A stretch of DNA of 26,313 nt, from the IMG/VR virus record IMGVR_UViG_3300001097_000028, positions 1-26,313 of that record; one strand, given 5' to 3'. Position 1 is the stretch's first letter; the number at the start of each line of letters is the position of its first letter. Both the position numbers and the translations under genes were made by a program. The stretch is from a virus. A model generated the notes under the pieces. The model ran no database searches and was not told the DNA's origin. It worked only from the letters and a program-made list of their open reading frames with translations. Positions 578 through 1,612 of the stretch are shown here, one piece after another.

Positions 578-761
578 ACAACGTGACGACGCGACGCCCG
601 AACAGATCGCGGCCCGCTACGGCGTGAGTGATGAAACCGTGCGGCGGATGCTGCGTGAGAAAAAGATACCCGGCGTGAAGCTCGGCGCGGTCTGGCGGTG
701 CAATCCGGTGCAGGTGCATGAGGCGCTGGTAATGTCGAACGTGACGCCGAAAAAGCGTTGA
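564..761 (+). CDS. small HTH protein, excisionase/MerR-like (HTH_17 type)
   Basis: A 65-aa protein that is essentially one DNA-binding domain: TPEQIAARYGVSDETVRRML is the helix-turn-helix and IPGVKLGAVWRCNPVQV is the following wing with the conserved Gly and Trp-Arg of excisionase-family HTH_17 proteins. The GTG at 564 is chosen because a GGAGG Shine-Dalgarno sits at 552-556 with 7-nt spacing; an upstream in-frame TTG at 540 lacks this. The gene overlaps the MuF gene by 14 nt, so it is probably translated from the head operon. Its TGA stop overlaps the -35 box of the next gene's promoter. It could be a small regulator or an excisionase-like accessory. There is no recombinase in view to support excision. 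The domain call is good; the biological role is unknown. Confidence 0.7.
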   Translation: MISNKQRDDATPEQIAARYGVSDETVRRMLREKKIPGVKLGAVWRCNPVQVHEALVMSNVTPKKR

Positions 762-786
762 CGGATTTGCGGTGTTCTGGTAAAAT
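758..786 (+). promoter_or_regulatory. strong sigma70-type promoter of the XRE-sigma4 gene
   Basis: TTGACG (758-763) and TAAAAT (781-786) are separated by exactly 17 nt, and TGG directly precedes the -10, giving an extended -10 (TGn) element. The predicted start of transcription is about 792-794. The -35 overlaps the TGA stop of the HTH gene. It reads towards the gene at 897 and the predicted start coincides with the first base of the interleaved inverted repeats. This is sequence inference only. Confidence 0.75.
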
Positions 787-792
787 GATCGC

Positions 793-879
793 GTCAAACA
801 CCGGTTCCCCCTAAGAACCTAATACGCTACCGCCCCCACGTTCACCTCTCCCGGTGTTTGACAACGTGTGGGCGGTAGC
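793..879 (+). ncRNA. structured leader: two interleaved inverted repeats (pseudoknot topology)
   Basis: Two pairs of complementary arms alternate. Arm A1 793-804 (GTCAAACACCGG) is perfectly complementary over 12 bp to A2 851-862. Arm B1 826-842 (GCTACCGCCCCCACGTT) is complementary at 16 of 17 positions to B2 863-879, the only mismatch being C836/T869. The order A1-B1-A2-B2 shares no bases between arms and is that of an H-type pseudoknot. The connecting loops are 21, 8 and 0 nt, and A2 and B2 abut. A1 begins at the predicted transcription start, and B2 ends 3 nt before the GGAG Shine-Dalgarno of the downstream gene. It may be a cis-acting 5' UTR element, a separate small RNA, or a DNA-level operator. 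I do not recognise it as a known class. Confidence 0.65.
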
Positions 880-896
880 AATGGAGTCAACCCATT

Positions 897-1583: not shown

Positions 1584-1612
1584 AAGCCCACGATTAAACC
1601 CGTGGGCTTTTT
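1584..1612 (+). terminator. rho-independent terminator after the XRE-sigma4 gene
   Basis: A perfect 9-bp stem AAGCCCACG (1584-1592) / CGTGGGCTT (1601-1609) with an 8-nt loop, followed by a T run to 1612. It lies 24 nt after the stop codon at 1559 and closes the cassette that starts at the 758-786 promoter. Confidence 0.85.

Follow-up and report, generated by a model that had tools for sequence, protein, structure and literature searches.

In an uncultured phage, a pair of crossed inverted repeats occupies the whole predicted 5′ leader of a gene for a protein that combines an XRE domain with sigma70 region 4 (XRE-sigma4). The feature is real and rare, is represented by one genotype, and most likely constitutes the leader of a phage moron gene, folded as a long-stem pseudoknot. 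Our computations support the pairing and its rarity, the coincidence with a predicted promoter and +1 position, the order of folding, the energy, a feasible geometry, a base bias in the linkers and a self-contained transcription unit. The window, i.e. the entire stretch of DNA analyzed, comprises bases 1–26,313 of the 33,724-base virus record IMGVR_UViG_3300001097_000028.

Crossed repeats in the predicted leader of XRE-sigma4

An inverted-repeat search of the window revealed that the A1 and A2 arms are complementary at all 12 positions (100%) and the B1 and B2 arms at 16 of 17 positions (94%), with C836 opposite T869 as the sole mismatch (Table 1). The arms succeed each other in the order A1–B1–A2–B2, share no base and together form 28 of 29 possible pairs, which is the crossed helix order of an H-type RNA pseudoknot. 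An earlier note, made from the letters of this DNA, had described the same arms, pairing counts, crossed order and absence of any reused base, all of which were exact on recheck, and had correctly placed a ribosome site 3 nt past the end of B2. The crossed unit thus fills the predicted 5′ leader, from the predicted +1 to 3 nt before the Shine-Dalgarno (SD)-like GGAG of the XRE-sigma4 gene.

Table 1 Features of the leader and its transcription unit (positions in the window)
Feature	Position	Strand	Remarks
Sigma70-type extended −10 promoter	758–786	+	TTGACG, 17-nt spacer, TGG-TAAAAT; 10/12 matches, TG before −10
A1, 5′ strand of stem S1	793–804	+	Starts at predicted +1; S1 stacking about −24.0 kcal/mol
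L1 linker, 21 nt	805–825	+	One G; reach ample for 29-bp stack
B1, 5′ strand of stem S2	826–842	+	S2 stacking about −33.4 kcal/mol
L2 linker, 8 nt	843–850	+	No G; has to span S1
A2, 3′ strand of S1	851–862	+	12/12 with A1
B2, 3′ strand of S2	863–879	+	Contiguous with A2; contains ops-core-like GGCGGTAGC
Small hairpin AAUGG/CCAUU	880–896	+	Pairs part of SD; contiguous with S2; −2.4 kcal/mol alone
SD-like GGAG	883–886	+	3 nt after B2; 10 nt before ATG at 897
XRE + sigma70 region 4 protein, 220 aa	897–1559	+	Pfam Sigma70_r4 2e-13; HTH_3 1e-4, just below its cut-off
Intrinsic terminator	1584–1612	+	9-bp stem, 8-nt loop, U tract; −15.8 kcal/mol

To judge the rarity of this arrangement, each sequence was scored by the number of paired bases summed over its best crossed inverted-repeat pair; the element scores 28. 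When the 161 bases surrounding the element were shuffled locally 4000 times (first order), the maximum score was 20, and one of 466 shuffled 26-kb copies of the whole window reached 28 (~0.2% window-wide); as Markov shuffles omit some biological sources of repeats, these figures serve as guides. Real viral DNA gave a top score of 24 over 118 other loci (1.05 Mb), in a sequence of 12% GC, and of 26 in a further set of ~115 kb. The latter score belongs to crossed inverted repeats that precede an XRE gene in a phage of 28% GC (L027:1870–2012); we did not accept this XRE operator region as a comparable element, given its 28% GC DNA and its resemblance to repeated repressor operators. Against this background, the element is outstanding for its G+C-rich arms. 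The crossed pairing is therefore locally far beyond chance and rare in real phage DNA, which bears out the earlier judgment that it was very unlikely to have arisen by chance: none of the 4000 local shuffles came close, and ~1.05 Mb of other viral DNA held no equal.

The 6-nt discriminator GATCGC places the predicted +1 at G793, the first base of A1, in agreement with the start at about 793 that had previously been proposed from the extended −10 promoter. Both promoter and +1 are consensus predictions, and a start 2–3 nt upstream of G793 would give a free 5′ tail. Several smaller sequence features were noticed around the leader. A hairpin (GGTTC-CCCCTAA-GAACC, 803–819) lies within A1 and L1 and competes with the last two S1 pairs. 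An ATG at position 881 opens an out-of-frame ORF of ~38 codons (881–997, read by eye) that overlaps the start of XRE-sigma4. The –35 region (752–762) is complementary at 9 of 11 positions to the SD–ATG spacer (886–896); a read-through pairing of 757–762 with 886–891, which would close the ribosome site in longer transcripts only, had a probability of ≤0.27 and was not adopted.

The gene itself stands apart from its neighbors. Its GC content is 0.484 as compared to ~0.62–0.67 in the surroundings, with third-position GC much lower, and it is followed by an intrinsic terminator that a consensus scan had missed, probably because the stem uses part of the T run. Upstream, the order is terminase large subunit (named from reading frame and position rather than from a profile search), portal, MuF-like head protein and an excisionase-like HTH_17 gene (540–761), then the element; downstream of the element, XRE-sigma4 is followed by a Mu-like protease, head decoration and capsid E proteins and then the tail genes. 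Having its own promoter, its own terminator and a low GC content, the XRE-sigma4 gene is best seen as a moron inside the head-gene operon, in line with phage morons as separately transcribed genes of deviating composition among late genes. The only relative available for an empty-site comparison is very distant (24% portal identity) and its record lacks XRE-sigma4; no direct repeats were found flanking the XRE-sigma4 insert.

The layout of this unit also bears on the suggestion that the leader is mainly a small RNA in its own right, which would be processed out of the transcript or arise by premature termination and act in trans. A compact and very stable structure that starts at +1 could indeed persist as an RNA of ~87 nt. 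However, B2 is not followed by a terminator, the next one being located past the gene, no complementary target was detected in the phage and no homologue was found. We therefore regard a trans-acting RNA as improbable.

Folding, geometry and the choice between RNA and DNA

On a rough Dirks–Pierce-type estimate, the knot has an energy of about −44.5 kcal/mol, as compared to −38.1 kcal/mol for the best nested fold of positions 793–879, a difference of ~6 kcal/mol in its favor. With a much harsher pseudoknot penalty of 15, the knot (about −39.1 kcal/mol) is still level with the nested fold. Within these rough parameters, the crossed fold is thus at least as stable as its nested competitors. Energy parameters for long-stem knots are poor, and a nested fold of S2 and small hairpins differs from the knot by no more than the error of the estimate. 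The order of transcription is favorable, too: S1 can form before B2 emerges from RNA polymerase, S1 alone is favored once A2 is out, and the knot is preferred at every exposed length from position 871 onwards.

Geometry narrows the possible arrangements. With a third linker of zero length and an S1 of 12 bp, the classical stack is impossible in a simple A-form model, and the only feasible arrangement has A2–B2 as one continuous 29-nt strand. The earlier note had proposed that the helices stack with the 21- and 8-nt loops crossing them. This proved sterically possible, yet only as the non-classical A2–B2 stack, where the linker lengths allow both helices to coexist and L2 needs ~47 Å along the surface against a reach of ~48–52 Å, i.e. 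is nearly taut. With almost no slack in L2, fraying of S1 or a lack of helix stacking is possible. In the stacked A-form model, the 5′ nucleotide G793 occupies the nick where the two helices meet.

The linkers provide a hint as to the strand and molecule on which the element acts. Together, L1 and L2 contain a single G in 29 nt on the plus strand, and only 2 of ~26,267 same-shape placements in the window are equally G-poor. This favors plus-strand RNA, as such a bias makes sense for linkers that have to remain unpaired but not for a DNA operator; we give the test moderate weight because it was conceived after seeing the sequence and because the comparison is mostly coding DNA.

Were the arms instead operator or recombination half-sites in DNA, for example for autoregulation by the XRE domain, the position of the element at the start of the transcribed region would be fitting, as would the tendency of XRE proteins to bind DNA dyads and the excisionase-like HTH_17 gene preceding the element. 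There is also a precedent in BstA/aba, where an element at the beginning of a prophage gene is able to act as DNA (PMC8585504). As here, a short special sequence stands at the head of a regulator or defense gene of a prophage; aba, however, has 63 bp, is apparently DNA-based and carries terminal CCCGCC direct repeats, as opposed to crossed inverted repeats and no BstA in the present case. The layout is likewise unlike that of a usual operator: the A arms show no sequence relationship to the B arms, dyad centers are 25 bp apart and the arms of each pair are separated by 46 and 20 bp, and repeated related dyad half-sites, as in XRE operators, were not found, nor were strong further copies of the arms elsewhere in the window. 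A recombination site was discarded because no tyrosine integrase or serine resolvase gene was found in the virus record. Combined with the strand-specific linker bias, this renders a DNA site quite unlikely.

Template switching might have produced such a structure as well, by copying short inverted segments into functionless crossed repeats. The stems are nearly perfect (28/29), as for a recent copy, and the element is known from a single virus lineage. A single switch is insufficient, because A2–B2 is complementary to B1 and A1 in permuted order; two events would need to abut exactly, and the coincidence with +1 and SD as well as the nearly G-free linkers would be left unexplained. An origin as a mutational by-product hence appears unlikely.

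Its leader-filling position, the G-poor linkers, the non-operator layout of the arms and the lack of an integrase or resolvase lead us to prefer plus-strand RNA, and an RNA fold is likely. The independent RNA and the DNA site, both of which the earlier note had put forward as alternatives, are accordingly judged less likely than the leader.

Homologue searches and known leader RNAs

Only one other copy of the element was found, on contig IMGVR_UViG_3300023301_000194, with an identical leader and two differences in an overlap of ~10 kb. The existence of a second contig, from an almost identical virus, makes an assembly error unlikely; this copy adds no comparative information on the pairing, so that the element represents one genotype. 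Searches of viral contigs, reference genomes, phages and plasmids, some of them single-protein searches whose reach is limited to close relatives, yielded no diverged homologue of the leader. Relatives of XRE-sigma4 were limited to generic sigma factors or generic XRE proteins. A stem-pattern scan of viral contigs returned the same virus and two further matches, both dismissed as chance: one is inside a coding frame (L007) and the other in a region that reads as coding (L008). A 16-mer spanning the A2–B2 junction matched 119 stretches, and none of the 118 loci checked had a comparable crossed repeat.

Rfam yielded nothing real at gathering or permissive thresholds, the only match being JUMPstart on the minus strand (16.6 vs. 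35 bits); in keeping with the initial impression that no known riboswitch, ribozyme or sRNA class is present, no family member exceeded its gathering cut-off. Two further classes were considered and rejected. A type III toxin-antitoxin RNA would require tandem repeats and a toxin gene, neither of which is present. An HDV-like ribozyme would have no room for its catalytic joining segment, A2 and B2 being contiguous.

The JUMPstart/ops similarity resides in the B arms. The RfaH ops core GGCGGTAGC is present in both of them, on the plus strand at 871–879 in B2, and the minus strand at 824–834 fits GGCGGTAGNNT; GGCGGTAG occurs five times in the window as compared to 0.9 expected. In a genuine ops leader, the non-template strand of the transcribed region would carry GGCGGTAGNNTG, whereas the plus strand here reads GGCGGTAGCAAT and thus lacks T11-G12, common to all validated E. 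coli ops targets (PMC5995543). As T11-G12 is missing, the virus record contains no NusG-family gene and 15% of shuffled windows hold an ops-like match, GGCGGTAGC probably occurs in B2 by coincidence.

Translation is known to be controlled by pseudoknots that precede or cover a ribosome site, examples being rpsO, the alpha operon and T4 gene 32 (PMC10931766, PMC535899). The T4/RB69 gene 32 operator is, as here, a phage mRNA pseudoknot at the 5′ end and upstream of the SD (PMC535899). There, a knot of ~28 nt is followed by >40 nt of less structured, UUAAA-containing leader, whereas the present knot has 87 nt and arms of 12 and 17 nt, ends 3 nt from the SD and precedes a gene for an XRE-sigma4 regulator rather than Ssb; neither UUAAA/UAAA repeats after the knot nor an Ssb gene downstream were found. 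The rpsO (uS15) and alpha operon (uS4) pseudoknots are similarly next to or over the ribosome site, the mycobacterial rpsO knot being upstream of the initiation site as in our case (PMC10931766), but they differ in arm lengths, linker order (21-8-0 here) and stacking, and the present leader has neither a ribosomal protein gene downstream nor a known rRNA-mimic motif.

By analogy to uS15, uS4 and gp32 on their own mRNAs, the knot could be a ligand-gated translational operator, bound by the XRE-sigma4 product, a ribosomal protein or another host factor and thereby locked or opened near the SD. The knot adjoins the SD, stacking of the small SD hairpin on S2 is possible, a regulator gene is directly downstream, and pseudoknot-controlled mRNAs provide precedents. 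However, known operator pseudoknots have far shorter stems, and long stems would hamper switching. Moreover, no known operator motif was recognized, Rfam was silent and both XRE-sigma4 domains are of DNA- or RNAP-binding types. Protein-gated control is thus rather unlikely. On paper, the leader resembles known leader pseudoknots and 5′ stem-loops; by these comparisons, it is a member of none.

Possible effects on the message and other features of the record

Pairing statistics, energy, folding order, geometry, the coincidence of A1 with +1 and the G-poor linkers all argue for a pseudoknot-type leader that begins at the transcription start, as the earlier note had read it; that it acts in cis on XRE-sigma4 we infer from its position. 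The best explanation, which we advance with a little less than even confidence, is a leader pseudoknot acting in cis, in which the 5′ end is buried, the mRNA is shielded and a stable helix is pressed on the ribosome site.

In this model, the transcript from the 758–786 promoter would begin at G793 and its entire 5′ UTR would fold into the pseudoknot. S1 (A1:A2, 12 bp) would form first, with B2 still inside RNA polymerase, and B2 would then pair with B1 within the S1 loop to give S2 (17 positions, including one C·U mismatch). The helices would stack with A2–B2 continuous, so that the mRNA 5′ end would be placed at an internal nick instead of hanging free. According to a review, RppH and the 5′ sensor of RNase E need single-stranded 5′ termini, which accounts for the long-known stabilizing effect of 5′ structures (PMC3997798). 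A 5′ end hidden in the knot would be a poor substrate for RppH and subsequently for RNase E or J, and the message would be long-lived. In parallel, the stable S2 and the small SD hairpin, which may stack on it, would lie against the ribosome site, and 30S loading would be reduced or gated.

In the 5′ stem-loops of the ompA/papA type, a paired 5′ terminus is likewise expected to block RppH/RNase E (PMC3997798). These are simple hairpins, whereas here the 5′ end would sit inside the coaxial stack of a pseudoknot. Of the chain that leads from sequence via fold and buried 5′ end to longer life, the computations support the part up to the fold; formation of the knot in the cell, a buried 5′ end and the two effects on the message, on decay and on translation, are what we infer beyond it. 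That the leader founds a new RNA class, namely a long-stem pseudoknot with a third linker of zero that takes up the 5′ UTR completely and hides the 5′ end in the internal helix junction, combining decay protection with ribosome-site control of XRE-sigma4, is a more speculative and rather doubtful proposition.

If it forms, the knot would compactly conceal the 5′ end of an mRNA in a folded leader, and would couple message lifetime to translation control for a regulator gene within a phage head operon. It would also offer folding studies a natural long-stem knot with unusual stacking and provide a defined target for how 5′-end accessibility controls decay.

The right-hand part of the virus record (segment L006, positions 26000–33724) contains type IV CRISPR-like ORFs on the minus strand (L006:2630–6127). 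Adjacent ORFs match Cas8/Csf1, Cas11, Cas7/Csf2 and Cas5/Csf3, with a weakly CysH/PAPS-reductase-like ORF beside them, suggestive of a IV-B-like set of cas genes on a phage. The right end of the record (L006:7470–7725) consists of a low-complexity repeat with proline/alanine-rich frames in all readings and is possibly an assembly end.
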